Positions 14,101 to 59,400 of a DNA stretch of 64,000 nucleotides are shown piece after piece. The notes under the pieces were generated by a model that searched no databases, was not told where the DNA came from, and worked only from the letters and a program-made list of their open reading frames with translations. This DNA comes from Apostichopus japonicus (taxonomy: Eukaryota; Echinodermata; Holothuroidea; Aspidochirotida; Stichopodidae). A program made the translations under genes and the position numbers. Location: assembly GCF_037975245.1 (NCBI RefSeq), contig NC_092568.1, positions 17,133,001 to 17,197,000 on the forward strand, in the 5' to 3' direction. Numbering within the stretch: the stretch's first letter is position 1; every line of letters begins with the position of its first letter.

Positions 14101-15953
14101 TAGGGACTGTAGTAAGATCATTGGTTTGCTGATAGGAGACAGGTAACAGAACGGTGAAATATTACGGTAAAATTGGTACATTCAAAAAGGTTTCTCATAA
14201 ACATCATCAAAAATAGATTTTTACTTGTTGCCCACTTTGTTTTCCCAGTCTTGCACAAACACGACAAGAACTAATGAATACAGCCCACAACTACAAATTG
14301 TGCTTATTTTTAAGGAGGCATCAAGAAATAAATCTGAAGTACTGTTCGCATGCTTGATCCTACCGTACCGTACGTCACAGTTTCATCAGTATAACTTACT
14401 AATTTACTTGCTACCTACCTTTAATCTTTCCTTCAATGCGAGAGTCTAAATTTCTCTCTCTGTCAAGAGCATCATCTGAGATTTTTGGGGCACTCTGCAG
14501 GGTTACTAGAACTATACTCATATTATCTCTGCTTCCCTGCAAAATTAAAATATATACCATATCTACATTAAAACACCAGTACTAGCAATTTAAGCAGAAA
14601 AATAGCAACTCTCTTTATGGGACTAAATACTGTTGCAAAGTCTTATAAATAAACAACTTCACTTTTAAGTCACCGTCCAGTCATTACAGGCAACTTTCCT
14701 AAATGGATTTCGAGCCCTCGACTCTGTTTACTAACTTGTTTAAATCCCTTCACTTTTGAAATGTTAGTGACTCGCATCATGATTCATTACGGGGATACTG
14801 GACATTGTAGAAAGCTTGTTTGCAGCATGTTATACAATTACTTTAATATGAACAATCAAACCTGATAACTCATTCATCAGCCATAAATGTGCTGCAGGTC
14901 TAGGCCAAGTTAAAATTACTCATGGTAATAATGTCTGCTGAAGCACTGATATAACTAATGACCAAACTAACCATACATTTTCAACACAGCAAGTTGACTG
15001 ACAGGAGAGGATTCAATATGTTGTAAACACAACCTACCTCTCCTATGAGTAAAATTAATAATTCAACAATCACGATGACAAGTATACGGCTGCCATTCTC
15101 ATTAAAGTGCCGACTGACTTACCTTGTGTAACGAGGTATCGATAACTTGGTTACAGACTTCCTCCAGGTCATCTGTTAACTGTAGCCTTGACTGGATAAA
15201 TTCAAAGGTGGCTTCATTGGACATTACATCCCAGACACCATCACAAGCCAATACTATAAACTCATCCTTAGCACTTCTTTCCATGACAGTTACTTCTGGC
15301 TCTGGCGATACTAATTGTTCTGTGGCGTTCCTATCGGGTGCATTTTTGTACTCGTAGTCGCCGAGAGCTCGTGAGACAGCTAGCGATCCGTTCACACGAC
15401 TTATCATGACTGTACCCCCAGCTTTATGGATTCTGTCCCTTTCCACTGGCTTGCTAGGTTTGTGGTCATCTGTATGAAATTCTACGCCGTTATCCCGCAC
15501 CAGAATGCCCCTCGAGTCTCCGCAGTTGATGAAGAAGAGGTGTGTCGGTGAGATGATCACCCCGACCACTGTCGTGCCACTTTTGTCATCGGTAAACTTA
15601 TCTTTCATTTTTTGGTCTATGCTTAGAAAACCGTTTCTTATACCCTGCTTGACACTCTCCACGGTCGGTGGTGGCGGGCTGCCAGCGTCCTCGTCCAAGT
15701 CCAGTTTTGAGATGATTTCCGGGAGTAAATTCTCGGAGCAGTACCTCGCTACTTTAGATCCCGCGTGCCCGTCGTACACCGAGAAGAACGACCAGCCCGA
15801 GAGCCCTCCTCCTGGGAGACCGATGACCGTCGAGTGGGCATCTTCCATCTCCACACGCCATCCTTGCATACTACTGACACCATATCGCAGACTGTTTCCA
15901 GTTCCACTACTACTCTCCTTCTCAATTTTTGGTTTATCTAAGAATGCCCCCAT
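11170..15953 (-). CDS. PPM1A/PPM1B-type metal-dependent Ser/Thr phosphatase (PP2C), complete, 377 aa
   Basis: Exons on the minus strand: 15953-15123, 14536-14419, 13840-13735, 11893-11839 and 11193-11170 (stop TGA 11172-11170). Each has a GT donor and an AG acceptor, and the frame is kept throughout. The start is the ATG at 15953-15951: it has a strong context (ACCATGG), an in-frame TAA lies 12 nt upstream, and it gives MGAFLDKPK, the myristoylatable N-terminus of vertebrate PPM1A/B. Metal-site residues fall where expected: R33, E37, D38, the D of VYDGHAG (D61), the D of NCGDSRG, ACDGVWD, and SRDNMS in exon 2. Exons 2-4 encode the alpha-helical C-terminal extension (ending IPERKKE) and exon 5 adds EYSDPSW; human PPM1A is 382 aa and also ends in W. 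The enzyme dephosphorylates Ser/Thr in kinase cascades such as p38/JNK, SMAD and AMPK (family knowledge). The last exon is short but has a TACTAAC branch sequence about 20 nt before its AG. Confidence 0.93.
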
Positions 15954-18900
15954 GGTCAATTGTTAGACGTCATCCAACAGGCGCAAATTATCGCTCTATC
16001 ACCACCTCATAATGGTGAGTTCCATAGGTTATCTAGGGCCATGTGTTTCCTTTTCACTTTCCTGCATGAACAGAGAAGAAGAGTGGAGGAGGTAAAAACA
16101 AGTCCTTATTGGAGGTTGGAGGAAGCTTGAACCTAAGGAACATTATTCACCACATTTCAAAACTAATTCCAGTATAATAGAGTAACAAACAACGTTTACA
16201 GTAAATATACACATTTTGTCGTCAACAGTTTTATAACTATCTCATGGATCAAGAAACCTCCAATGAGTGTCGATACTGCTTTGAAACCCCTTTCCACCTA
16301 GCCCCTGACAAGATTGCCACTCCCCCCCCTTCCCCCCTTGCCTTCAGGCATGTTGGATGGAGCTAACCACTGAAGGAGATACTACCAAGTAATCTCATTT
16401 GATGCTAACTTGAAGTTGATGTAATCCTGTGTTTTTTTTAACTTACTAAAAAATCACATACAATTTAAGCCTGCGATGAGCTCCAACCGAAATGATGTAT
16501 TTGACTCCGTTGCAATTACACTTGTACATAAGGGTGTTTGTTGAAAATTTTACATTTTGGAAACTGGAAATGGAAATTGTGATACAAGGATATGATCGCG
16601 AAATAAATAATGAATTTGTATAAATCCTCCATGTGACTTTCAAATATGATTGTTGTCTAAGGTAAAAAAAAAAAAAAAAAATTAAAGACAATGGCATTTA
16701 ATTTTAGAACATTCTCATAGATGAACATAATGAGAATACATACATTGCAAATTTTGTGTGCCATTTTGTTTGATCAGAGAAGATAACAGTTAAACACCCA
16801 CACATACTGTAAAAGCTTTCTGATCAAAGTGCAAATCTGGGATGTACACTGGTACTAGAGTGTTTCAAGACTTACCGATGAGTCATATACTTTACATGAC
16901 GCATTAGATGTGCACAAGAAAACTGATTCCATACTGGCATATTATATATGTTGATCTAGCAAACATGACGCACAAGCTATCAGTAGAAATTACCACTTTT
17001 AGAAAACAATTACTTAATTTAAAACTTGACGAAAAGTAGTAAAATGAAATCCAGAATATTAAACTCAACATTGTCCAAATATCCCGAGTTCCTTTCCATG
17101 GTGTTAATAACTTAAAAATAATGTCAGAGTATTGCACGAAAGAACCTGACCAAGCAGTGTACTACTGCAACCAGGCTTGATTACACGAGAATTGTCCTTT
17201 TTGAGCTAAACAAATGGCAGTCTCTGTGCTGACTTATGACACACAAAGATGTCTTTAACCAATGCAATGTTTCTCTAGTATTAAACATATGATAAAGGAA
17301 GACAGAAATCAGCGAAACATCATTGCCAGAGGATGCAAATGATGAAGTATTTCAGTTGATGTTGACTTGTAAAATATACAAAAGGACTGCAGTTTCACGG
17401 GTAGGTCTCACACAAAGATGTCTTTACCGATGCAATGTTTCTCGAATAACAGATGCTAAATGATGAAAGAAATCAGCAAATCATTGTCGCCAGAAATTGC
17501 ACAGGACGAAGCATTTCAGCTCATGTTGAATTGTTAAGTATACAAAAGGACCGCACTGCCACTGCTAGTAATAGACATGTACAGTACTATAAGCAGCACT
17601 GTACATCACATGAACCCACACAATTGACTAGGATCATACCCACGCTCTATGTTATATTTGTAATGTAAGCAAAGCTCCGGGTTGATCTGGGATAAGCAGT
17701 GACTGGTGTTTATCATCTGTTGTTGTTTATTACATATGTAATTTGACAAAACATTAATAGACATGTACAATAAGCAGCACTGTACATCACATGGGCTTAT
17801 GGTGTTGCTCCTTTTCTTCTAGTACTAGAGAAACCTCAAGTACCTGTTCAGTGGTTGCGAGTGATACTGAGTACAGGGTCTTATACAAAGGTGCAGGGGT
17901 TGAACTGAATTGTAGGCTGAACACTGAGCTCGGGGTCTGATCCATTATGCGAACGCAGCCTTTTGAGACTTGCACATGCCCAAGAGACAACCAGTTTATG
18001 TGCTATGCAAACAATAAGTCACATATATAATCTCATATATGCACTCATTAAATCACGTTGGACAACCAACTACTTTATTTGTTACCAGCTTTACTGTAAC
18101 TTTAAGAGAAAATCCACATCGTCTCTAAGCAAAATTCCTCAAAAGTCACTGCTGTCCAGTTACTGACCAGAGGGACTTAAATATTTTGTGGACTGACCAT
18201 CAGGGCTGCAATACTGTAACACTGAGAATGACCCAACGTTGCCCCTGGATTCTAATCCTTAATCTGCCCGACAGACAGGCGCTTTATTGCTAACTGTGAA
18301 CATAATCGTAAGCAAAGCATTTCAGTATGTTGGTATAAAGGAATTCCACCAACTCATATGGTCATTTCTGTCCACTGTCATTCTACTGTATATGATTTTC
18401 ACCCTATGAATAAATAACTGCTGAGTTCTATCATCAACTCTCTTAGATGATGGAGCTACAACCACTCTGTGGTCACAGCTGATAAGGTACATACAACTCT
18501 GTGGTTGTAGCTGACATGACACAGTCTAAAGGTAGAGATCATTTTGGCATTGGGCAACATTTACCTTTTTTTTTCAGCTCAGGCGCTTTCAATTTTCCTA
18601 TGAGTCAACCAAGATTTACGTCAAATGTCTGTCAGGCCTGATTAATGTCATATCAATGCCAATAAATAACTATTCTTTTCCCCCTTTTTTTTTTTGTATT
18701 CTTTTCAATTCATAAATTATGTGCCTTGCTTTATACTGAATGTGTTACTAGTACAAAAGTACTTGTAAGAGTTCACATCATTCAAAGGGATTTTGACTCA
18801 ATCATCTCATGTGCAGTAACTGAAAACATAAAGTACTGTAGGTGCTCATGTGAAAAGCAGCATTTGAAGTTCTGTCTCAGCAAGTCTGTACAGAAAGAAA

Positions 18901-32901: not shown

Positions 32902-32911
32902 ATTTCAAAAC
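32902..32911 (+). repeat. 10-bp target-site duplication, left copy
   Basis: ATTTCAAAAC directly abuts the left terminal inverted repeat and is repeated exactly at 40435-40444. A 10-bp duplication lies within the 8-11 bp range of Mutator-like (MULE) transposition. Confidence 0.88.
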
Positions 32912-32980
32912 GGCTGAGGTTAGTTCCAAGGTGTTTCGACAACACAGCTAGTTGACCTCTAACGTCACTTCCGTTTCAGA
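32912..32980 (+). repeat. Left terminal inverted repeat of the MULE-like element
   Basis: Starts GGCTGAGGTTAGTTCC. The first 33 bp match the reverse complement of 40434-40402 exactly; beyond that, GTTGACCT, ACGT and ACTTCCGTTT are shared with small gaps. It contains ACGTCA and ACTTCCG, which resemble CRE and ETS binding sites. Confidence 0.88.
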
Positions 32981-33159
32981 TTCGCTGATCGTATTGTGGA
33001 GTTTTGGGATGTGTTGGGGATAGAGATGGAGATGCTAGTTACTTTTAGAGCATTTTTAAAACGAAATGCATAAAATCAAGTCAGCAAATGATGGAAAACG
33101 AAACATTCAGTGTGCGGTACTAACTGTTTGCATCACTAAGGTAAGCGAAACCCTCAGAT

Positions 33160-34330
33160 CTAGGCTCTAGGAAAAGATGGTACACGAAACACTCAGTGCG
33201 CTGTACCAGGTGTCTGAATCACTGTGTCTGTGATGTGGTGTCGAAACACCCTGCATGGAATTCCAAGTGTTTGAATCACTGTGTCCTGGTGAAACCCTCA
33301 GAATGCAATACCAAGTTTTGTTGTCGAAACACCCTGAAACTAGCCTCAACTCGCTGTGTTGTCGAAACACCTTGACATTAATCTCTTTGTTTTCGAAACA
33401 CCTTGAACCTAGTCTCAACTAGCTGCGTTGTCGAAACACCTTGACCAACTAGCTGCGTTGTCGAAACACCCTGAAACTAGCTGCGTTGTCGAAACACCTT
33501 GACACTAATCTCTTTGTTGTCGGAACACCTTGAACCTAGTCTCAACTAGCTGCGTTGTCGAAACACCTTGACCAACTAGCTGCGTTGTCGAAACACCCTG
33601 AAACTAGCTGTGCTGTCGAAACACCTTGACACTAATCTCTTTGTTGTCGGAACACCTTGAACCTAGTCTCAACTAGCTGCGTTGTCGAAACACCTTGACC
33701 AACTAGCTGCGTTGTCGAAACACCCTGAAACTGGCTGCGTTGTCGAAACACCTTGACACTAATCTCTTTGTTGTCGGAACACCTTGAACCTATTCTCAAC
33801 TAGCTGCGTTGTCGAAACACCTTGATCAACTAGCTGTGTTGTCGAAACACCCTGAAACTGGCTGCGTTGTCGAAACACCTTGACACTAATCTCTTTGTTG
33901 TCGGAACACCTTGAACCTAGTCTCAACTAGCTGCGTTGTCGAAACACCTTGACCAACTAGCTGCGTTGTCGAAACACCCTGAAACTAGCTGCGTTGTCGA
34001 CACACCTTGACACTAATCTCTTTGTTGTCGGAACACCTTGAACCTATTCTCAACTAGCTGCGTTGTCGAAACACCTTGATCAACTAGCTGCGTTGTCGAA
34101 ACACCCTGAAACTAGCTGCGTTGTCGAAACACCTTGACACTAATCTCTTTGTTGTCGGAACACCTTGAACCTAGTCTCAACTAGCTGCGTTGTCGAAACA
34201 CCTTGACCAACTAGCTGCGTTGTCGAAAAACCCTGAAACTAGCTGCGTTGTCGAAACACCTTGACACTAATCTCTTTGTTGTCGGAACACCCTAAAACTA
34301 GCCTAAACTAGCTGCGTTGTCGAAACACAT
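33160..34330 (+). repeat. Terminus-derived tandem array, 127-bp higher-order unit
   Basis: The basic unit is GTTGTCGAAACACC plus TTGA/CTGA, then a variable spacer of mostly AACTAGCTGCG. Three basic units form a higher-order repeat whose marker (AACCTA following CGGAACACCTTG) recurs at 33406, 33533, 33660, 33787, 33914, 34041 and 34168, exactly 127 bp apart each time. The first ~240 bp are more diverged. There is no coding meaning. Confidence 0.92.
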
Positions 34331-35160
34331 TGACACTAATCTCAGTGAAACCCTCAGAATGCAATACCAAGTTTTGTTGTTGAAACACCTTCAACCTAGC
34401 CTGAGCTAGCTTTGTTGTCGAAACACCTTGACATTAACCTCAATTAAACCCTCAGAATGCATTACCAAGTATTGTTGTCGAAACACCTTGACACTAGCCT
34501 CAACTAGCTGTGTTGTCGAAACACCTTGACACTAACCTCATTGAAACCCTCAGAATGCATTACCAATTATTGTTGTCGAAACACCTTGAAACTAGCCTCA
34601 ACAAGCTGTGTTGTCGAAACACCTTGACACTAACCTCAGTGAAACCTTCAGAATGCAATACAAAGTTTTGTTGTCGAAACACCTTGACACGCAGCCTCAA
34701 CTAGCTGTGTTGTCGAAACACCTTGACACTTATCTCAGTGGAACCCTCAGAATGCAATACAAAGTTTTGTTGTCGAAACACCTTGAAACTAGTCTCAACT
34801 AGCTGTGTTGTCGAAACACCTTGACACTAACCTCAGTGAAACCTTCAGAATGCAATACAAAGTTTTGTTGTCGAAACACCTTGACACGCAGCCTCAACTA
34901 GCTGTGTTGTCGAAACACCTTGACACTTATCTCAGTGGAACCCTCAGAATGCAATACAAAGTTTTGTTGTCGAAACACCTTGAAACTAGTCTCAACTAGC
35001 TTTGTTGTCGAAACACCTTGACACTAACCTCAGTGAAACCCTCAGAATGCAATACAAAGTTTTGTTGTCGAAACACCTTGACACGCAGCCTCAACTAGCT
35101 GTGATGTCGAAACACCTTGACACTAACCTCAGTGAAACCCTCAGAATGCAATATTACCAA
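34331..35160 (+). repeat. Terminus-derived tandem array, ~98/197-bp higher-order unit
   Basis: Continues the previous array with the same TTGTCGAAACACCTTGA core, but adds CTCAGTGAAACCCTCAGAAT and GCAATACAAAGTTTTG. Units recur at about 98 bp and pair into a 197-bp repeat (34608, 34805, 35002). Because 197 is not a multiple of three and each unit contains a stop, the short frames with repeated LLSKHLDT are accidental. Confidence 0.92.
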
Positions 35161-35679
35161 GTCATCATTCATTCACTTCCCATGCTCCATTAATCCAATG
35201 CTTTATTCCTCACTGTGCCCCATTAATCTACCATACCCAATTCATCTAACACACCATTCACATACCTCCATTCATTCACCTACTAACCCCACCCACCTTT
35301 TGCCATCCACTGATCTACCAAATATACTTCTAACCATTTAGTCAGTCCAACCTTAATTACAACCTTTACTCACTCTATTGCAATTCAACACACCTAGCCT
35401 TTATTTTAGTCTGACATAAGTTTCTAAAAGAAACATGCTCAACTTTTTTCCCATAGACACCAAATAGGGCTTACCTATTAACCAAATCAAATGTTATAAA
35501 AGTCTATTATATTTCCACTCTATTCTATTGACACTATTGTTTTTCTCCACTTCTTTTCCAGACGCTTTGTGGAGGTTGATCTGACAGATTTACATACAGA
35601 AGGACGGCTAACGTGTGAACATACAGAGAGACAAATGGACCAACAGACAAATAAACAGATGAACAGTAATGGTGTTATG

Positions 35680-35780
35680 TCCCCTCTTCACCAACTTTGT
35701 CGGCAAAGAGATAATAAGTGCTTTGCATAAGGACATAACACAGGTGCATTGACCAGGAATCAAACTAGGAACCTCTTGCT
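35680..35780 (-). repeat. Possible tRNA-derived SINE fragment
   Basis: On the minus strand, AGTTTGATTCCTGGTC resembles a tRNA B box and is followed by TGTTATGTCCTTATGCAAAG, a motif typical of SINE bodies. It lies just downstream of the MULE transposase remnant. Ends are not defined. Confidence 0.4.
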
Positions 35781-35849
35781 GTGTGGCTTTGCTAAAAACT
35801 TTTAAAAAGAAAAGTACTAATAACTTTGTGTAGGTTTGGGTTAACTTAC

Positions 35850-36290
35850 TTTCCTTGCTCCAATGCAACCATGCCTGTTCCATTTTAAAGGCATATAAAA
35901 ACTTCTGTGTACCTGGAAACACTGCATGCAGTGCTTGGTATTCTTGTTCGGAATAGTCAAGCATGAAGAACTTGGGGTTCCATTCAAGGTTCCATCTTTG
36001 ATGATGTCAAGGGCCTCTGTTATCACAACAGTCGTTTCATTCTCTGTGATGAATTCAGCCACAGGACTATAACCAACCTTGGTCCTCACAAATACCAAGA
36101 ACAGGCAGAGCATATTTTGTGGTCTTGTAGGTGGCATCAATGAGTACCATGTCTCCATAACGCTTTAAAAGCTGTTGTTGCTGGCTGGTCTGATGGATGA
36201 ACAGGAAAGCAGTGCTTTGTCTGGTGTCATAGCTGTCATCTTCCATGTCATCCCTATCGTCTGTTTCTTGAACAATACCTTGTGTTTTGG
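35850..36290 (-). pseudogene. Broken MULE-type transposase core
   Basis: Read from 36290 downwards, frame 1 gives PKTQGIVQETDD, then TAFLFIHQTSQQQQLLKRYG, then DMVLIDATYKTTKYALP. A frameshift follows, then LFLVFVRTKVGYSPVAEFI and ITEALDIIKDGTL. A second frameshift follows, then NPKFFMLDYSEQEYQALHAV and FKMEQAWLHWSKE. This is the transposase core of the MULE-like family that in animals often sits with SWIM zinc fingers; the D of IDATYKTT and the D of LDYSE fall where catalytic acidic residues are expected. A good splice donor (GTAAGT) follows WSKE at 35849. No SWIM zinc finger or intact ends were found. The two frameshifts could be assembly errors, but their number favours a pseudogene. Confidence 0.8.
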
Positions 36291-36659
36291 GCTTTCTATG
36301 TGTAAATGAGCGATTGTAACGATAGGCGTATTCTTGTGTGGGCGTACATGTATATAGTGTAGCGTTAGGCTATGGTGCGCTTGTAAGCGACGCATCGCTG
36401 TTTAATTACGTAACAGAGGTTTCAAACGTATCAGGCGCGGCGCGCTGTTTGTGGTGCGTGCATGCATCTGGTGTGAGTGTGTGCGTGTGGTGTGATAGAA
36501 CTTTCTTGTGTATGAAAAGATTTGGCAGAGCTTATGAATGAGGCGGTGAGTACGGATGGTTGACCGGCCAAGACTTGTGAGCGAGTGAGTACGTTTGATT
36601 CTTATGTATTGAGCTTGTGACTTGTAAGTAAATTATGCTTTATATTTTATATTTAGTTT

Positions 36660-36735
36660 GCTCCAGTTGAGTTGTTAATTTATTCAAGTAAACCGTTGCT
36701 CCAGTTGAGTTATTAAATTATCCAAGTAAACCGTT
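36660..36735 (+). repeat. Two-copy 38-bp tandem repeat
   Basis: GCTCCAGTTGAGTT...CAAGTAAACCGTT occurs at 36660-36697 and again at 36698-36735 with four or so differences. Confidence 0.8.
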
Positions 36736-38639
36736 AATCTTTTGTTTCTGCGTTATCTTTGCAACTTCTCTCCCCTGAGTCATCATACTTTTGGAAGGGC
36801 ACGCCAGTATGGGAAACCACTAAATTTACATATGGATCGGTACATCTGAGATAGCTGTTTGTTTTGGCTTGTCTGAGCACTTGTGACGAAAAAAACAATC
36901 TCGGTTGTTTTCACTTTGCCATGCCTTCATTTTTTCTTCTAGATTGAGTTGGTCAAATTGTGAAAACCTGCCTTTACATAGTGCCAGCTGTATGCAGTTT
37001 CTTATTGTTCTGTTTGTGGGAAAATATCACCTGTCATGTTTCAGAGGATTGGAGTCAGGACAAAGCTCATTATAGACAAAATGCTCAAGTGTCTTTTCAT
37101 AATTCCTTATGATCTTGTTCCTAACTTCACGATGAATATAGCAAAAACTGCAATTTTTTTTACAAATGTCACAATGTGACTTGATCCTATACAACAATTC
37201 TACCAGCCTAGATCAGTTTCTTGAATATGTGGCTTGATGCTTGTTCCTCTGGGCTATCTATACAGAGCCTCTTCTTCCTTCACAATTAGATATTATGCAG
37301 CTCTACAAGTGAAAGCATGATGTTGGGTCTGAAGTGGGTACCAGCCTACCAGGGAGAATAAAATAAGGAAGGTGCCTCTGTCCATTAGAGAAAATTGTGG
37401 TTTTATTAAGCCCCTATACGTAATATGGTGAAGCTTTAGTAAGCCTATATCCAAGTAATGGTTTTTGAGGAAAACCTGGGAGAGGGAACAAGGGCTTCCC
37501 CCCCCCCCAACCACCCATCCCCTTTGGGAAATTTGTATTTCTAGTTGTGTATTTGAAAATTTGCTCAAGGTCTGGGAAACTGGGACAAGACCTTATGCAC
37601 CTGCCCCCACGCCCAGATTCCTGTCAGTGGGTTTGTTTGTACCTCTTGTGTACCAGATAAAAACTTCACAATGTTAAGTATGTTATGATTCTTGCATTGT
37701 ATGTGTAACAAAGAAATATAAAATAAATAAGTTTTATCTGCTTGTTAGAAGTTCCTACACTCTTTTCCTTCCTGAAGCAGGCAATGTTTTTGATCCTTCC
37801 AAGTTTGCTGGACTGAGCTGCTGCAATTTTCTTTAGACCTAACGTACACACTCCGCCAAGGTTTTGTTGCCAATCAAAAGCAGCTGGTAGTGAGCTTTAA
37901 CAACATCAGCTCCCAGTTTTCTTGTTTAAAAAGGCGGGCACTGTCTTATGTGTTGTTGAAGAATTTTACACATTTTTTTTTACATTGTTGTATCAAGTTA
38001 ACTGTAAATTAAGAGACCTTTTTGTACTGGAATTGCACTTCCAAGTGTATGGTGACCCAAGATGAACAAATTTCTATCATGGGATTAGCCTTTTTTTCTA
38101 TAGCAATTAAGTCACATGCACAAATGATCAAATTCTTCTTGGCAACTGAGTGGCTTAATCTTATCTGTTGGTGGACTTGAACCACCTGCTGAATAAATTC
38201 TGCATCACCTGAACAGACTTTTATTATGGCCAAACAAATTACCAAGAAGAAATAAGTTACTTAGATTGACAGTTCACTGGCACCTTGAATACTGAAATTA
38301 GCTTCTACCAGACTTCTGTAGACCTAACGTAGTGCCTATCTGAACTTATTTATTGTTATTATTAGTTTAGTTTGGTAGAAAAATAAGGATCAGGAGGGGC
38401 ACTCAATTCCCAAGGACCCTATAGGAGAGAAAAATCTGAAGACATAAACACTCAGACCCGATTACAATGCTTAAAGTGCTTGTCCAAAGCATCCTTAACC
38501 CATTCACACTTCTTGCAAGTACAACTTTCTCAGGCAAACCACTGTAAGTTTTCACAAAACGTGCAAGCTTACCCACCAATTCCATTACGACATATCCCTC
38601 CTGTCCTGACAATACACAACATACCCCGTCCAGGTGAAT
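36736..38639. other. MULE interior without recognised genes
   Basis: AT-rich DNA with no family motif. It may hold remnants of the element's other coding parts or later insertions, but none could be identified. Confidence 0.3.
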
Positions 38640-39430
38640 TCCACGAGACCGAAGGTCTGCAGGACCGAATTTCCGAGAACCGATGGTCCGTGAGACCGAT
38701 GGTCTATGGAGCATGCCCCCTACTGTAAATTCTTGACTGGTGGACGTCCCTGCCCCCCCCTACCTTAAAATCTGAAGAGGTAAGAGAAAACGGGCGATTT
38801 AATCCAGTTTAAAACACTTTTTTACATCGTCAAATTACAAAAATATTATTTGAACTTCGAGTAGTCTAAATAATTTTGACTCCTTACAGAAGTAGAATCG
38901 AAAACCGCAACATGTTCCCTTGTTATAGCGGATACTGTCATTATTATCCCATTTTACTGTGAAATCAGGATTAATTAGGGGTCAACTTTTAACCTCTAGC
39001 CCGTAACAGTTGACACAATTTCCTCATAATAAACCAAACGTCTAATTTACTTCCTAAAATTTGTACATTTTGTAGCACAAACACACAGCAGGGGGGTTAG
39101 ACATTTGAGAGCGGGGGCTTTTGCCCCCTGCAACCCCCTCTGGATACGCCACTGGTGGAGGCCTAGTATCAATGCAAGCTGCCCCAGCCCCTTGCGCAAC
39201 TCACTGGTATCCATTATGAAAAGAAATGGCTGTAAATTCTTTTAAGTAACGCTCTTTATCAAGGTAATATTACCAGTAGTAAGATTTGTCTTACCAAGTG
39301 CTATTATAGGCCTAGTAGTTTAGGTCTCCCGGGGCCTAGTATTTAGTAATAGTTTCGGTCTCGCGGACCTCGGTCTCGAAGATCTTCGGTGTGGCGGACC
39401 TTTTTACTTTCGGTCTCGCGGACCTTCGAT
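38640..39430. repeat. Inverted pair of palindrome-rich clusters
   Basis: The cluster at 38640-38707 contains CGAGACCGAAGGTCTGCAGG and GGTCCGTGAGACCGATGGTC. The cluster at 39355-39430 contains GGTCTCGCGGACC twice, plus GGTCTCGAAGATC. The two clusters are in opposite orientation about 650 bp apart, and each 13-mer is itself a hyphenated palindrome (GGTC..GACC). This could be the termini or subterminal repeats of a nested element. Confidence 0.55.
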
Positions 39431-39588
39431 CTCGCAGATCCTCAAGAAGAACAGTAAATTCAGCAAAAATTTTACAAATACTTCTAGCATTGGTAAAGAC
39501 AATCTTCAGCTTATCCCTGTAGTGTAACTTGTGTAACTAGGCCTAGGTGTACCTTAGCATGCCTCCTGATATTACTAGAAAGGTGGGG

Positions 39589-39714
39589 CTTATTCACAGG
39601 GCAGCTCTGCGAATAGCCAGACACATACACCTTATTCACAGGGCAGCCCTGCGAATAGCCGGACACAAGTATCTTATTCACAGGGCAGCCCTGCGAATAG
39701 CCAGACACATACAT
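39589..39714 (+). repeat. Three-copy 42-bp tandem repeat
   Basis: CTTATTCACAGGGCAGC.CTG CGAATAGCC..ACACA starts at 39589, 39631 and 39673. The core recurs in inverted orientation at about 39866-39918. As 42 is a multiple of three, both strands stay open across it, which produces repeated but meaningless peptides. Confidence 0.9.
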
Positions 39715-40365
39715 GCTTTTAAAATTGAACTGCTGGGGTTCCAAAAATTAGCTTATGAAGTAGCTAAGACTATTTGGGCCTTAAAGGTTGGCTTTTTCAA
39801 GGCCCCTAAACTGACTGGTATCAATAGCCAAACCTAATAATAAACCTATTTTCAAAATCGTCACAGCCCTGCGAATAAGGTGTCTGTGTACGTTATTCGC
39901 CGGGCTGCCCTGCGAATCACTTCGTATTAGAAATGACTTTCCCTCCTTTCAAAACACCTATAAGCACCTCCACTAGAAATATAATTCTTATCAAAATTTA
40001 TGCCTGCCCCCATCGACCCCCAATTTCGTTTAAACATAGCTGTTCAACAGAGTAATTCACCAACCATTAGGCTAACGGTTATGCCGTTAGGCCTACAGTA
40101 CCTTAGGCTACGTCTTGGGGCCTAAGCTGTGGCAGCTACAACCTGCAACAAAGCCTGGCTCATATAATTTTCTCAAACGTTAAAAGTTCAAGTCAAGAGA
40201 ATACAATTAGGTATAATCTTTACGTCCAGGCTTCAAACCCATGCTGCCCAGTTGCCGTCATCTTCAGGTTAATCGTCAGCCTGCTGAGTAGCCGTCATCA
40301 ACAACTTGTACAAGTAATTTACACTTTCCATTTCGCGCCATTGCAACAGGAATACCAGAGAGGGC

Positions 40366-40434
40366 TCTTGAAAACGGAAGTACGTCACAGGTCAACTTCT
40401 CTGTTGTCGAAACACCTTGGAACTAACCTCAGCC
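40366..40434 (-). repeat. Right terminal inverted repeat of the MULE-like element
   Basis: The + strand ends TTGTCGAAACACCTTGGAAC followed by TAACCTCAGCC at 40434. It contains CGGAAGT and TACGTCAC, which resemble ETS and CRE sites, about 1.1 kb upstream of the RPAP1 ATG. Confidence 0.88.
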
Positions 40435-40444
40435 ATTTCAAAAC
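40435..40444 (+). repeat. 10-bp target-site duplication, right copy
   Basis: ATTTCAAAAC, identical to 32902-32911. Confidence 0.88.
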
Positions 40445-47400: not shown

Positions 47401-50400
47401 TCGAAGGTATAGATCTTGCATAGTGAAATATAACATTCATTGGTCTAGAAAGTGTCCAAAAGGTACTTCCCTTGGGAATGTCCAGATGATATTAATGTCC
47501 CCGAGTTACCTTCATGACTGCAGACAGTAGGTAATATACTGTACGGGTAGTACAGTTTTTCAGGCAATATATCTTGTCAATTAATATTTATAACAATATT
47601 TAGTCTGTTGAAGTCACTCATTTGAAAGTTATAGAAGAAACAGATCTATCAAAATGTGATTCAAATTACCATTCTCATTTGTCATATTTGAATAAACCAA
47701 AAGTGTAATATTTGAGAAGATACATTCGCTCATAGGATTTTGGGAATGATTGAGCAGTTAAAACCTTAAGGTTGTCAAGTCATAGCACATGGCATTGCCA
47801 GATACAAATATAGATTATGTTTTTGTATATTACTAAAAAATCAATGATATGTGCTAACTTTCCAAATGTGGTGATAAAATAGGCATTATATTGCGAATAA
47901 ATATTCATGATTTTAAATTCTGATATTTCAAATGAAATTATTATAATTAGTTGCATTATGTGTGCCCATATTATTCAAGTTGCCTAATTACAGGGGAATG
48001 CATATGATATCTTTAATCAGTGATTCATTCATCAAACTATAACATCCCTGTAATTTTCACACAGTAAATAGGTAGAAGCACTATCTTGATTTGACGTGAC
48101 TCGCGTGACGTGACTCGCGTGACATTCGTAAAGGGTTATTTTCTGCAAAATTTGAATATCTTCTGAAAAGGAAAATTCAGTAATCCTTTTGGTATCTATG
48201 TGAAGACTTGATATTCATTATTTGGAGTAAAACTTTTGTGCAGGCAAGGAGAAAAAACAAAAACAGTCAATTTTGTGACTCACATGACAGTAAATCGAGG
48301 GTGTTTACTGTTTTCAATTTACCACTATTGTCTAATGCCTTGATGTCAGAATAAAATTGAAGCTATTAAGTGAGCACTATGCTATAGCAAATATAATTAG
48401 TCCAACACACAGTTAATAGGTAGAAAAACTATCTTGAATTGACGTGACTCGCGTGACATGACTCGCGTGACATTCATAAAGGGTGATTTTCCGCAAAATT
48501 TGAATATCTTCTGGAAAGGAAAATTCAGTAATCCTTTTGGTATCTATGTGAAGACTTGAAATTCATTATTTGGAGTAAAACTTTTGTGCAGGCAAGGAGA
48601 AAAAACAAAAACAGTCAATTTTGTGACTCACATGACAGTAAATCGAGGGTGTTTACTGTTTTCAATTTACCACTGTTGTCTAATGCCTTGATGTCAGAAT
48701 AAAATTGAAGCTATTAAGTGAGCACTATGCTATAGCAAATATAATTAGTCCAACACACAGTTAATAGGTAGAAAAACTATCTTGAATTGACGTGACTCGC
48801 GTGACGTGACTCGCGTGACATTCATAAAGGGTGATTTTCCGCAAAATTTGAATATCTTCTGGAAAGGAAAATTGAGTAATCCTTTTGGTATCTATGTGAA
48901 GACTTGATATTCATTTTTTGGAGTAAAAATATTGTGCAGGCAAGGAGAAAAAAACAAAAACAGTAAATTTTGTGAATTGCATGACAGTAAATCGAGGGTG
49001 TTTTCAATTCACCACTATTGTCTAATGCCTTGATGTCGAAAAAAAATTGAAGCTATTAAGTGAGCACTATGCTATAGCAAATACAATTAGTCCAAAAAAC
49101 TGATGATACCTATGATTACTATGTACAAATCTGCACAAAATGAAATTTCACTGTATTTTTCATAATTTAGTTACTAAGGGAACCATTTGTTATTAACGAC
49201 CCCATAATCAAATGAATGATGTTTCGGGGGTGAAAAAATTATTTTTAGTAACTACAAGTATTCTATTTATTGGAAACTTATACAATTTTAATGTACAATG
49301 ATTTAAAATTTTTTGGTATGATGTTGACCTTATCATGGAATTGACCAGTACATAGCAATATCAATACATACAGTGCAGCCGCAGAGACAAAACGTACAAT
49401 ACTACTATTCAAAAAAGCAATGCTACTTGAAGTGGCATTATCCATTAGAACAGAATGAGTCCTCGAAGCCATTGAGCAATGCTTTTCTTATTTATTCTTC
49501 AATGTATGAGTCTTTATTGAAACACTTTTGAGTCATTCCCTCGTCTTCCTCCAATGAAGTTTTTCTTGTCATAATTGAAGATAAATCAGTAAAGTAACCA
49601 CTTTTCTGTTTATATGCTAATTTACTTGTTTGTGATTGATTGATTGAACTTTCATCAAACTCCTTGTGAATGATTTCATGGAACGATGCAGACATTTCTT
49701 TTTTTTGACTATTTTCTTCCAGATCCAAGTTTGGTGGCATTTCTTCAGAAGAAGAAACGTCAGCCTGGTGGAGAAAGGAAGGAACCAGAAGTCAGGAGAG
49801 ATGAGGAGATGGAGACTAATGAAAGAGCAACAGAAGTGAAACCAGATTCTAATGATGAAGGTTAGTTTCAGAGTTTGGCACGAGACTTTTAGTTTATAAT
49901 ATCTTATATAATCTAACCTAGTACACATGGGCATGAGAATCATATTAATTGAACAAAAAAACAAAAAGTACTAACATTTTACCTGTACTCCTCCTCACGT
50001 CAGAATTAACTCAAGTAACTCCGGTTCAAGGACGTTGTATGAAAATTCTACGAAGTATTCCTCTCACCAATGAAAGTTGTCGGTAGTAGGGAAGGTTTTA
50101 TGCTTTAGCTAATAGACGATTAGAAAAACTTTCTAACTTATCTGCAATGCAAATGTTATAGACCTGTGTGTTAGGTATTTGGATTAGTCTTTGACAAGCA
50201 ATGGATTTTTTTTGTGGAGATATTAAAGCATCTCTTGGGGCAGTTTGTAACAAACAAATTTTATTATATTATATGTTGAGCTCAATTAATTTTTTTGTGA
50301 TGCGAGGTTTTAGTCGTTCTGTTGCCTCTGAATTTGTAGTCTCCACGATTGTGACTGCTGCTGTCACCCTGAACTTCATAAACTTTGTTAAAATAATCAT

Positions 50401-56400: not shown

Positions 56401-59400
56401 AGCTAGCGCATTTCATATCAGCATGGAGGCCATCAGGCTATGGCATACCTGTGTAGAATATGGGCAGCTTACAGAAATGTACAGGTAACTTATGATACAG
56501 TATGGGGGATTCCGTCAGTCTAGTTCATATTACGTGCAATCTTGATTATAATCTTATAATAAAGCATGAATTTCAAAAAATAATAATTGTGAAGTTTCCA
56601 TTCTTTGCTACACTCGACACCTTTCAATACGATATATTTTTATGACTTACTCTCACAGAATCAGATAGGTATAACTGTTTGGTATTTTTAATACTCTACT
56701 TAATATCAGGAATTAATAGGGGGGGGGGGGGGAAAAAACATATAGTTAACAAAAAAATTGTGAAATTTGTCATAAATTGTCATAAGTTTTTAAGTGTTTG
56801 TTATAATTGATGACAGCTGGTTTACTCCTTTACTGTATAATGTTCCTCCCTCACAGTGAATTGTATCCAATATTAGTACAACACCTGCAGCTGTTCCAAA
56901 GACTGTCCGTGCTCCCTCTACCGGCGACCACCACTGCTGGTGACGAAACTGTTCACAGATTACAGCTACGGAGATCAGGGACGCTTATTCTTTTACTGGA
57001 GGGAGTAGTTCAGGTGGCTGGAGCTGCTGCGTCCCTTCACCAAAACAGGTTAGCGTTAGACTATAGGCATGCTCTGCTTACATCAGTACTGAATCCTGTG
57101 TGAGGTCACAGACACCATGTATTCTTTTACTGGAGGGAGTAGTTTAGGTGGATGGAGCAGCTGTGTCCCTTCACCAAAACAGGTTAGCTTTAGACTATAG
57201 GCATGCTCTGCTTACATCAGTACTGACTCCTGTGTGAGGTCAGAGACACTTTGTATTCTTTTACTGGAGGGAGTAGTTCAGGTGGCTGGAGCTGCTGTGT
57301 CCCTTCAGCAAAACAGGTTAGCTTTAGACTATAGGCATGCTCTGCTTACATCAGTTCTGATTCCTGTGTGAGGTCAGAGACACTTTGTATTCTTTTACTG
57401 GATTGAGGGAATAGATCAGGTGGCTGGAGCTGCTGTGTCCCTTCACCAGACTAGGTTAGGTTTAGACTATGGTATGCTCTGCTTACATCAGTTCTGATTC
57501 CTGTGTGAGGTCAGAGACACTTTGTATTCTTTTACTGGAGGGAATAGATCAGGTGGCTGGAGCTGCTGTGTCCCTTCAGCAAAACAGGTTAGCATTAGAC
57601 TATAGGCATGCTCTGCTTACCTCAGTTCTGAATCCTGTGTGAGGTCACACACACTATAGATTCTTTTACTGGAGGGAGTAGATCAGGTGACTTTGTACTA
57701 AATCAACAAAAAACAGCTGCTTTTATTGGGGGGGGGGGGGGGGGAGGGACCGTAGTTATGTTGTTTTATTGATTACCTACAATCAGCCACTTTAATTTCC
57801 TGTCTATGAAAACAGAACCTCAGTGTCTTCCATCACGGCTGATAAGATAATCAATTTAATAATTAATCTTTAACCCAAAGTAAACATTGCGTGGCTCATG
57901 CAAATCATTTAGGCAGATTCCTAATCTAAATGACTAGTTATGCAGTATAAACTTAAATGTTTACTTTATGATTTATCTCACCAACATGTTGAACTCATGG
58001 ATTATTAACTATTTCTATTTTAGGGGAAAACCCTTCCGATTTACCTTGAAGTGTATGCAAACAAACTAAGATATAAAATGTAAGGTTTTTAAAGACAGCT
58101 GCCATGAGTCACAGATTATACAAGGGTTTATTTTTTCTTTAATATTTGTCTGACTCAAAGTCATTGAAACGGGCATCAGTGTGTTCACCATTAACCGCTC
58201 TTATCAATCGGAAAATATTTGAATGATCTGATGTTTTACATACTTCAAACTGAGAGCGATAAATGAAAACTTTGAAGGTTGTAAATGGTATAAAGAGATG
58301 GAAGGACACACATTTAGCATTAACATGTGATGTAGATCCAAAAAGGGCTCGATGATTTCATGATACATTTTCCTTTTTATTTTTTGTTTGAGGGGGGGTG
58401 GAGGGGAGGGGGAGGGGGAAGCCATCTTTCATTGCTTTTGTTTTCCTGGTTAAGCTAAGTGAGTACAGTATGAATGTGACTTTTACCTGAGATGAAAGAT
58501 TTACAGAAGAGAAGGAAAAGGAAAGATTTGGGGGAAATGAAGTGCAAAACTGTCCTGGGCTCAATTTTTCTTTTGTGGAGGAAAGTTATTTCTATGTTTC
58601 ATATAAGATCAGATTACTTTAGCATCTGCAAAAAAGTTTTCTTCGGTTATACGTTTATGCAAGATAGAGCAAAGAGGTGGAAATGAAAAAATATATCCAG
58701 TGACCTTGGTGGAGGAGGATTAATTACCTTTATGTTTCATATAATTTCAAGTTACTTTAAACAAATATGTAAACTGTAAACTTATATTACATATTTCTGC
58801 GAGAGAGAGAGCACAGGAGTAGAATTTTAATCCTGAACCTGTTGTTAAACAAGCTCTCTGTCATTCCAACTGAGCTTCCAACTCTATAATTGGGCCAATT
58901 CCTGGTGATTGCTTTCTCTCAGCAAGGTTGCTGGTTGTATTAAAGGCACAGAACTTTTGCACTCTTACCACTGAAATGTGTAAGAAATACTTTTGGCATT
59001 CCACGACAGATTCAGCATCATACCATGTTTATATTTTTATATAGTCAATTTGTTATTTGTACCGTTTTCACGCTACAATATTGGGATTACTAGCCGGCTC
59101 CATCATCTGCATGGCTGAACATACACTCTTCATAGCAATCTCAACTTCACAGGCTGGCTACGCAGGAAAAAATCCAGACCCAGATTTGCAAGGAGTTGTG
59201 GCGGCGAACAGTTAATTCTGCACACGGAAAGAAAATAGATCTCCTTGAGTAGCAAACATCTTCATAACAATACGTAAAATGCTCTACTTTGGTTCGTTAT
59301 TCTCAAATTAAACAATACATGTAACATTTGAATGCATTTGAGTTAACAACATCCTGCAAAAATGGTGCAAGCAGCAAATGTTCATCATATTTATCCGCAA

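Follow-up and report, generated by a model that had tools for sequence, protein, structure and literature searches.

A probable MULE-superfamily transposon family in Apostichopus japonicus, with giant members that appear to have moved with host gene pieces

A segment of the Apostichopus japonicus genome with inverted termini and the remains of a transposase raises the questions of what kind of element this is, how it might have moved, and what else shares its ends. In the 64-kb window (the whole stretch of 64,000 nucleotides that was analyzed), positions 32912–40434 form a 7,523-bp transposon with terminal inverted repeats (TIRs), with ATTTCAAAAC on both flanks (Table 1). A sequence-only reading had described termini with 33 identical outer base pairs, similarity out to ∼69 bp, and a perfect 10-bp duplication, and all three are borne out: GGCTGAGGTTAGTTCCAAGGTGTTTCGACAACA begins at the left edge on the plus strand, its reverse complement ends at the right edge, identity is 33/33, and weaker similarity with indels continues inward to ∼69 bp. 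Because the decamer ATTTCAAAAC occurs four times in the window, the duplication is weak evidence if taken alone. The subterminal arrays contain 48 copies of a 16-nt terminal core (two or fewer mismatches), all oriented as the B end, and the stretch containing the 42-bp repeat has no counterpart in a short copy on C8. An Rfam search of the window gave no match at the gathering threshold. We interpret the window copy as a nonautonomous, Rehavkus-like cut-and-paste DNA transposon of the MULE superfamily, as part of the overall explanation graded below; transposition itself was not observed.

Table 1. Features of the window element and its flanks, in window coordinates
Feature	Position	Strand	Basis
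Target-site duplication, left copy, ATTTCAAAAC	32902–32911		
33-bp terminal inverted repeat, A-type end, starts with GGCTGAGGTTAGTTCCAAGGTGTTTCGACAACA	32912–32944	+	
Subterminal tandem arrays, 127-bp then 98-bp periods	33221–35160	-	
Broken MULE/RNase-H exon of transposase (DATYKTTKYALP, LDYSEQE)	35836–36300	-	
Stretch interrupting the transposase fragment	36301–36831		
N-terminal (ALS2CR8-type region) fragment of transposase exon	36832–37140	-	Pfam on open homologue
42-bp tandem repeat, three copies	39589–39713		
33-bp terminal inverted repeat, B-type end	40402–40434	-	
Target-site duplication, right copy, ATTTCAAAAC	40435–40444		

The presence of a MULE-type transposase, also part of that reading, is supported by a minus-strand core, VLIDATYKTTKYALP (window 36067–36369), that matches PF21056 (E 8.1e-6; 26.2 bits against a cut-off of 27.2), and by an open homologue in a 31-kb copy on C22 whose MULE domain is above cut-off. 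FMLDYSEQEYQALHAVFPG lies in the minus-strand frame 35608–36006, which alone has no Pfam match, and the edge of the interrupting stretch (query residues 1 to ∼31) matches a dispersed repeat at ∼40 other places. The C22 copy keeps long open ALS2CR8-type/MULE/SWIM transposase exons, with Pfam matches above cut-off for ALS2CR8 (E 2.7e-14), ZSWIM-type RNase H (PF21056; 2.4e-16), and MULE (PF10551; 1.4e-12), and a SWIM domain at 19.5 bits against a cut-off of 19.6; the full-length SWIM exon is found at one place in 671.6 Mb. An open frame ∼4 kb downstream of the C22 SWIM exon has a candidate PHD finger (PF00628; E 0.0016, 18.8 bits against a cut-off of 24), in a region unmatched in the window, C8, and C7 copies, and because this match is below cut-off the Rehavkus label is uncertain. 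The transposase had been described as the element's own and broken; broken it is, but the damage is not private to this copy, as the short C8 copy has the same stops and shift. At 11 other loci inside short elements (C8 included) at least 99 of 100 residues of the broken piece are matched, at 92–96%. Because the break is common to the window, C8, and other short copies, the family most likely spread after its transposase gene broke, and the window transposase is rejected as the source. A scan of viral contigs with a 347-aa transposase exon gave seven pattern matches, none of which was confirmed.

That the ends define a family, as had been inferred from this single copy, is well supported genome-wide. 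The 33-bp terminus has 108 matches at three or fewer mismatches, compared with none for a reversed control, and the search with it that had been proposed returned paired inverted copies, 9–10-bp duplications, and the open C22 transposase exons. Exact 9–10-bp duplications are present at 25 of the 34 inverted pairs examined (window included), while none of 1,122 control combinations of non-partner ends shares 8 bp or more. The paired 33-bp TIRs, the 8–11-bp-class duplication, and the MULE/RNase-H domain of the C22 exon are all features of the MULE superfamily. An A-type end pairs with a B-type end, clearly by score, in 32/34 rows; the C22 right end is tied between types by score and B-like by eye, and the left end of a 90-kb C7 element scores low for both, with only ∼43 nt of the B type kept. 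Arrays also adjoin the A end in the C22 and C9 elements. Fairly recent movement had been suggested from the identical outer 33 bp, and we reject this as a dating argument because the 33-mer is nearly invariant across the family (at least 66 exact copies among the matches listed).

Elements of 44 to 165 kb with the same ends are beyond view from the window alone. Thirteen such giants have both family ends, two of them with a damaged B terminus. Seven have exact 10-bp duplications that differ between sites (giants of 44, 47, 51, 55, 65, 80, and 165 kb), three have near-exact ones, and three have none. Duplications are lacking at C9:36439542–36530617 (91 kb), C4:27184928–27265868, and C14:8056900–8118618, the first of which may be no pair at all. 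Their captured DNA includes a FER-like SH2-tyrosine-kinase gene of at least seven exons with introns, plus SET exons; the kinase gene is present at 28 loci, many of them broken, and all listed matches of a 296-bp satellite fall at these loci. A terminus match with three mismatches lies at C4:27986597, near the 27.9-Mb kinase locus. The interior of the 43.7-kb C9 giant has no significant transposase match, and none of the genome-wide matches to the transposase part falls, by position, within a kinase giant that has both ends. One giant was read completely; its sole frame longer than 152 aa reads as a retroelement gag-pol, and Pfam searches, which covered 84 of the 95 short frames taken from selected parts of that giant plus three other frames, returned only kinase and SET. 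A viral fusion (Teratorn, Maverick) is not favored, with no viral gene noticed in one giant fully read and frames partly searched.

The giants appear to have moved around the genome with these host gene pieces, a movement inferred from the duplications and from empty-site paralogues that cross the insertion points of four long elements. These match the 165-kb giant at 81/81 nt in 20 places (31 nt on the left including the duplication, and 50 on the right), the 47-kb giant at 90% in one place, the 90-kb element at 96–98% in three places, and the 31-kb element at 110/110 nt in 18 places. Probes for six other giants and for the window insertion, for which an empty relative had been sought, gave no crossing match when 40 of 367 and 40 of 262 candidates were scored. 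Could the giants instead not be transposons at all, but products of segmental duplication, or of joins made in assembly between unrelated ends that flank them by chance? The lack of an assignable end at 13 of the 28 kinase loci, among the matches listed, and the location of 27 of the 28 on only four chromosomes would fit, but for giants with duplications this is already contradicted by the seven two-ended copies whose exact duplications are site-specific, and by the paralogues crossing the 165-kb and 47-kb junctions; we find it scarcely credible. Growth in place, in which only short elements moved and the giants were enlarged by nested insertions and satellite growth, draws on the LTR retroelements nested in C9 and C22, long satellite arrays in the C9 and C14 copies, and the 90-kb C7 element, which is all satellite in three 3-kb samples away from the transposase end. 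Nonetheless, giants at distinct sites have the same B-end scar and captured DNA in the same order, with nine of fifteen 3-kb pieces from four other giants aligning to the C9 giant at 94–98% over at least 1.6 kb; the captured core thus moved with its ends, and growth in place is very improbable as a general account, although it remains viable for the C7 element and for some of the 165-kb length. Part of the giants' size is indeed post-insertion, given the nested LTR elements, arrays in the 165-kb copy that are absent from the C9 giant, and the 5 of the 15 pieces without alignment to it.

A plausible mechanism for movement of the family is that a DDE transposase like the open C22 one binds the termini (and probably the subterminal core copies too, of which there are 48), cuts the element out, and reinserts it via a 9–10-bp staggered cut, all of which is inferred; the same machinery would accept very long substrates. 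The giants would have arisen when, on one occasion, a micro-copy supplied its outer end and a neighboring copy its far end. Between these would have lain host-like DNA tens of kilobases long (∼42 kb for the smallest giant, counting its nested insert) that included a SET exon and the FER-like kinase gene, and this composite would then have multiplied as a unit, gaining satellites and nested retroelements to reach its present 44–165 kb. Such a composite-end origin is suggested by the giant B ends: in 10 of 13, an inner tip of the terminus (21/22 nt at its most complete) persists in inverted orientation, lying inward of the outer TIR and ahead of the captured DNA, and three lack it. Capture by template gap filling, Pack-MULE style, rather than through the outer ends of two neighbors, is supported for single-copy animal Pack-TIRs (PMC8277862); it is a real but doubtful possibility here, as retention of the inner tip is expected if a whole micro-element became an end. 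The helper might also belong to the related transposase families on C11 and C16 (43–44% identical), which keep long open frames, whereas C22 holds a nested LTR element. We regard this as unlikely, since matching ends and long open exons coincide, among the copies seen, in the C22 element alone, and the transposase fragments of the window, C8, and C7 copies are 52–83% identical to the C22 gene. Overall, a MULE-class, Rehavkus-like family with a C22-type helper and giants as composite-end units is the best explanation, to which we assign a probability of about 0.88; movement, helper, and composite ends are all inferred.

No unlinked donor locus was found for the captured kinase, with 13 of the 28 loci lacking an assigned end, and one of these could be the donor; the SH2 and kinase exons are 31–46% identical to their next-best relatives. 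F-BAR exons near the kinase loci were sought and discounted, as none of five FCH matches genome-wide is near those loci. Across five kinase exons (831 bp) there are 67 replacement and 43 silent unique changes, a ratio of 0.51 (p 6e-4) relative to the 3.06:1 expected from the flanking noncoding spectrum, using 21 copies for two exons and 8 for three, and excluding an exon for any copy whose gapped bases there exceeded 20 (at the N-lobe exon: L154, L155, and C9). We do not lean on this ratio: counts are not tree-corrected, flanks align poorly in places, and lesions are abundant. Six of the ten readable N-lobe (G-loop) exons have a common one-base frame change (L156, L158, L159, L160, L169, and L171), and the others have an in-frame 24-nt loss (L154), a stop (L157), a changed glycine (L165), or are open (L167); the exon is missing or unmatched in L155, C9, L163, L173, L175, and L177. 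The DFG-APE exon has a stop or shift in 7/12 sequences (C9, L166, L170, L172, L179, L180, and L181) and neither in L168, L182, or the partly covered L174, L176, and L178; it has no match in L164. Near 5.6 Mb on C20, all five exons fetched of the seven are open (L136, L167, L168, and L114), and no transposon end was seen at this locus. Given these lesions, the broken copies do not need the kinase in order to move. A speculative proposal, which we think improbable, is that the giants are the animal equivalent of Starships: the captured SH2-tyrosine-kinase and SET genes would have been kept as working cargo for part of the giants' history, and the private satellites and four-chromosome clustering would be signs of a lifestyle of the giants' own instead of mere passive baggage.

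These elements put a figure on the amount of DNA that an animal MULE-type cut-and-paste element can move, with duplications and empty sites for copies now 31, 47, 90, and 165 kb long, and they offer a possible route for the joint spread of intron-containing genes and satellite arrays. The defined ends, the likely helper, and the unusual range of substrates are open to direct tests in cells. Short and giant copies use the same ends, which permits parallel comparison of size preference, of composite-end usage, and of what the 48 subterminal sites do.

The giants are much larger than their relatives in the literature searched, in which no comparable MULE was found. The closest likeness is to Rehavkus, variously an outgroup to or a member of the MULEs, with a MULE-like DDE transposase, a 9-bp-class duplication, a minisatellite just inside one terminus (met here by the one-direction core copies of the window arrays), and a PHD finger, for which the candidate here (E 0.0016) is below cut-off; in the parts of the source available, Rehavkus is restricted to insects/arthropods and annelids, is known from Repbase only, and has no giants or cargo described (PMC6446971). 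The present family has both, together with an ALS2CR8-type domain. Phantom and other animal MULEs share the 8–10-bp duplications, SWIM finger, and MULE domain, and those of arthropods are 1.4–10.0 kb, with none described in the accessible text as carrying tens of kilobases of host-like DNA (PMC6446971, PMC13359780). Teratorn, a 180-kb piggyBac-herpesvirus fusion, is likewise a giant TIR transposon in an animal (PMC5601938). No viral genes were noticed here, and the giants differ in having MULE-type ends enclosing host-like DNA, satellites, and nested retroelements. The enzyme of the fungal Starships is a tyrosine recombinase, unlike that proposed here, and the C9 giant lacks a transposase match. 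Starships are similarly giant and cargo-carrying (PMC11623301). The Tetris foldback element also links a transposon with a satellite (PMC4079207), whereas the satellite here is inside the giants, with its listed matches only there. Pack-MULEs and animal Pack-TIRs resemble the giants in being transposase-less, with host gene sequence between TIRs, and moved in trans (PMC6431247, PMC8277862), and the C9 giant fits this pattern, with kinase and SET exons between TIRs and no transposase match. However, the Pack-MULEs cited in review are at most 7 kb and mostly fragments (PMC6431247, PMC8277862), whereas here at least seven exons with introns are carried in elements of at least 44 kb, and the gene is present at 28 loci.

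The sequence-only reading had proposed inverted termini with 33 identical outer bp and a 10-bp target duplication for the window element, and both were borne out; the check it proposed, a genome search with the 33-bp terminus, did recover inverted pairs with flanking duplications. At up to three mismatches, the 33-mer has 108 matches in the 671.6-Mb genome searched (35 contigs; 51 forward and 57 reverse), with 66 exact copies among the matches listed, and the control for this search gave none. Of the 34 inverted-pair rows obtained from 80 fetched ends, two have a common right end; for counting duplications one of these two was set aside and the window pair was included, which again makes 34. 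Exact 9- or 10-bp duplications flank 25 of the 34 (18 tens and seven nines), and none of 1,122 non-partner end combinations has a duplication of 8 bp or more. Past the outer 33 bp the ends split into two types, A, found on the left of the window element, and B, found on its right; A-with-B pairing is clear by score in 32 of 34 rows. The right end of the C22 element, a copy with open transposase exons, scores equally for A and B and looks more like B on inspection; the left end of the C7 element, a copy that is largely satellite where sampled, scores low for both types. On C9, two left ends with an identical flanking decamer have a single common right end, which suggests tandem duplication of the left terminus.

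Tandem arrays lie inside the window element. When the whole window was scanned for the 16-nt terminus core (up to two mismatches), one forward copy was found, at the A end. Of 49 reverse copies, 48 fall within the array and the other is at the B end; the rest of the window has no copy. Outside the element there are two further arrays, and an open frame encoding a protein phosphatase 2C domain, which is an ordinary host gene exon. Elsewhere in the genome, full COX1 is on C35. Judged by eye, it is best translated with mitochondrial code 9, in which AAA as Asn and ATA as Ile bring back conserved residues, so that an echinoderm host is most likely. Further COX1 pieces lie at two places ~15 kb apart on C29 and may represent a mitochondrial copy that is tandem or misassembled.

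Coordinates of the window element and of features across the genome (window positions unless a contig is named)
Feature	Location	Detail
Whole window	C8:17133001-17197000	
Window element	32912-40434	7,523 bp
Arrays inside element	33221-35160	127- and 98-bp periods
Array outside element	48058-49095	348-bp unit, 3.0 copies
Array outside element	56986-57689	134-bp unit, 5.2 copies
Phosphatase 2C frame	15102-15962 (-)	286 aa; PF00481, E 1.6e-72
Paired left ends	C9:1251550, C9:1252608	1,058 bp apart
C22 element	C22:19222205-19253156	31 kb; 10-bp duplication
C7 element	C7:5597920-5687917	90 kb; 9-bp duplication; fetched as L088-L091
Two-ended giants	C14 6.51, 7.54, 8.06, 10.61, 11.24, 12.46, 12.94 Mb	
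Two-ended giant	C4 27.18 Mb	
Two-ended giant	C9 4.42 Mb	
Two-ended giants	C19 21.65, 30.01 Mb	
Two-ended giants	C20 5.33, 14.38 Mb	
Kinase-locus regions	C4 25.4-28.7, C14 6.5-13.0, C19 17-30, C20 3.2-14.4 Mb	27 of 28 loci
Related transposase family	C11:9527563, C16:26205926, C16:45233742, C16:45447330	43-44% identical over SWIM exon
SET-like matches (examples)	C6:17024141, C11:26469543, C16:3930223	45-48%
C7 element, empty sites	C7:8301313, 12335691, 4698039	96-98%
C14 47-kb giant, empty site	C17:25387250	90%

The window transposase had also been called broken, and a short copy on C8 carries the identical stops and frame change. The broken gene is common to short copies, one piece being matched over at least 99 of 100 residues at 12 loci, the window included (92-100% identity). 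The C22 element is the only place in the assembly where the 369-aa SWIM exon is matched from end to end; one C16 place has pieces with 63-80% identity, and for other relatives the identity is 26-57%. The open exons of the C22 element include one of 347 aa, in which the ALS2CR8, ZSWIM-type RNase-H and MULE domains all score above cut-off; the element also has a SWIM match 0.1 bit under its cut-off and a weak PHD finger match. Arrays of ~4.2 kb adjoin its A end, and an LTR retroelement is nested within it (355 bp of the element were left out of the reading). Its transposase exons are open, and a working state can at most be inferred from sequence, there being no activity data. A related family on C11 and C16 has open frames of 326-330 aa and, for some members, 297-379 aa at the MULE exon.

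The giants, long members carrying captured FER-like kinase DNA, were identified by a common B-end inner boundary (12 places, plus the fetched sequence L045 by reading) and by their ends. Thirteen have both ends, at 43.7 to 165.1 kb. Exact 10-bp duplications flank seven; three are near-exact (C14 7.54, one mismatch; C14 6.51, a 2-nt indel; C14 12.94, a 3-nt offset), and no duplication was found at C14 8.06, C4 27.18 and C20 5.33. The B terminus is damaged in C14 12.94 and C20 5.33. The C7 and C22 elements are lineages separate from the giants. Three inner samples of the C7 element are satellite throughout, with 179- and 227-bp units, the former in both directions.

We read the whole C9 giant and sampled four others in 3-kb pieces. 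Its homology to short copies is limited to ~0.9 kb at the A end (among the matches listed) and the short B end. Nine of 15 3-kb pieces align to it over at least 1.6 kb at 94-98%, one aligns over 446 bp and five do not align. The minus strand carries a FER-like gene, which in consensus has canonical GT/AG exon borders, with these exons: an SH2 exon (FER is its closest solved relative, at E 2.4e-13), another SH2/N-lobe exon, a VAVK-containing N-lobe exon (missing from the C9 giant), one ending in CIHR, one with DLAARN-DFG-APE, one with SDVWSYG, and the last exon (PF07714, E 1.4e-9). Next-best relatives of the SH2 and kinase exons are 31-46% identical. A SET exon follows, often in two copies; SET-like matches also occur within very long open frames (909-1,263 aa), which may belong to a further mobile family that has a SET domain.

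The last kinase exon is present at 28 loci (C4, 7; C9, 1; C14, 7; C19, 8; C20, 5), comprising the 13 two-ended giants, two to which an A end alone is assigned, and 13 without an assigned end among the matches listed. By position comparison, all of the ~150 listed matches, of 441, to a 296-bp satellite fall at these loci, in a scan that scored 40 of its 96 candidates. Many kinase copies are broken, and some lesions are common to several copies, in giants with exact duplications; the kinase is therefore not needed for movement. Of the 28 kinase loci, 27 cluster on four chromosomes, unlike short copies, which are spread over many; the clustering remains unexplained, although the elements could be hopping locally or be tolerated where genes are sparse.

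How the giants arose may be read from their B ends. In 10 of 13, the terminal tip recurs in inverted orientation within ~110 nt after the TIR (its fullest form matches at 21 of 22 nt, and some are shorter), and captured DNA then starts with identical bases in 12 of 13; in the C19 21.65 giant the boundary is ~1.1 kb further in. The simplest reading, an inference from these sequences, is that a micro-copy came to serve as the end of the giant, with the outer termini of two neighboring copies used jointly.

Empty sites were sought with joined flanks carrying a single copy of the duplication. The C22 junction is crossed at 110/110 nt at 18 places, with further places at 96-99%, and that of the C14 165-kb giant at 81/81 nt at 20 places (the match spans 31 nt on the left, counting the duplication, and 50 nt on the right), with further ones at 99%; junctions of the C7 element and the C14 47-kb giant are also crossed. 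No crossing match was found for the window element, or for the C14 51- and 66-kb, C19 55- and 80-kb, C9 44-kb and C20 65-kb giants; as one search scored only 40 of 367 candidates and the other only 40 of 262, the absence says little.

With inverted termini, 9-10-bp duplications and a MULE-type transposase, the family appears to work like a MULE. Among MULEs it recalls Rehavkus, as far as that system is covered in the part of PMC6446971 available, in the minisatellite that adjoins one of its ends and perhaps in a PHD finger; no transposase tree underlies this placement. No giant animal MULE appeared among the best-ranked matches in an open-access collection that lacks bioRxiv preprints altogether and the majority of subscription papers. 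Arthropod MULEs span 1.4-10.0 kb in the accessible portion of PMC13359780, and the available text of PMC6431247 cites Pack-MULEs not exceeding 7 kb and describes full-length gene capture, by Helitrons as by Pack-MULEs, as exceptionally rare. The novelty lies in a family whose giants reach 165 kb and carry a gene-bearing core, more than in the window element alone.
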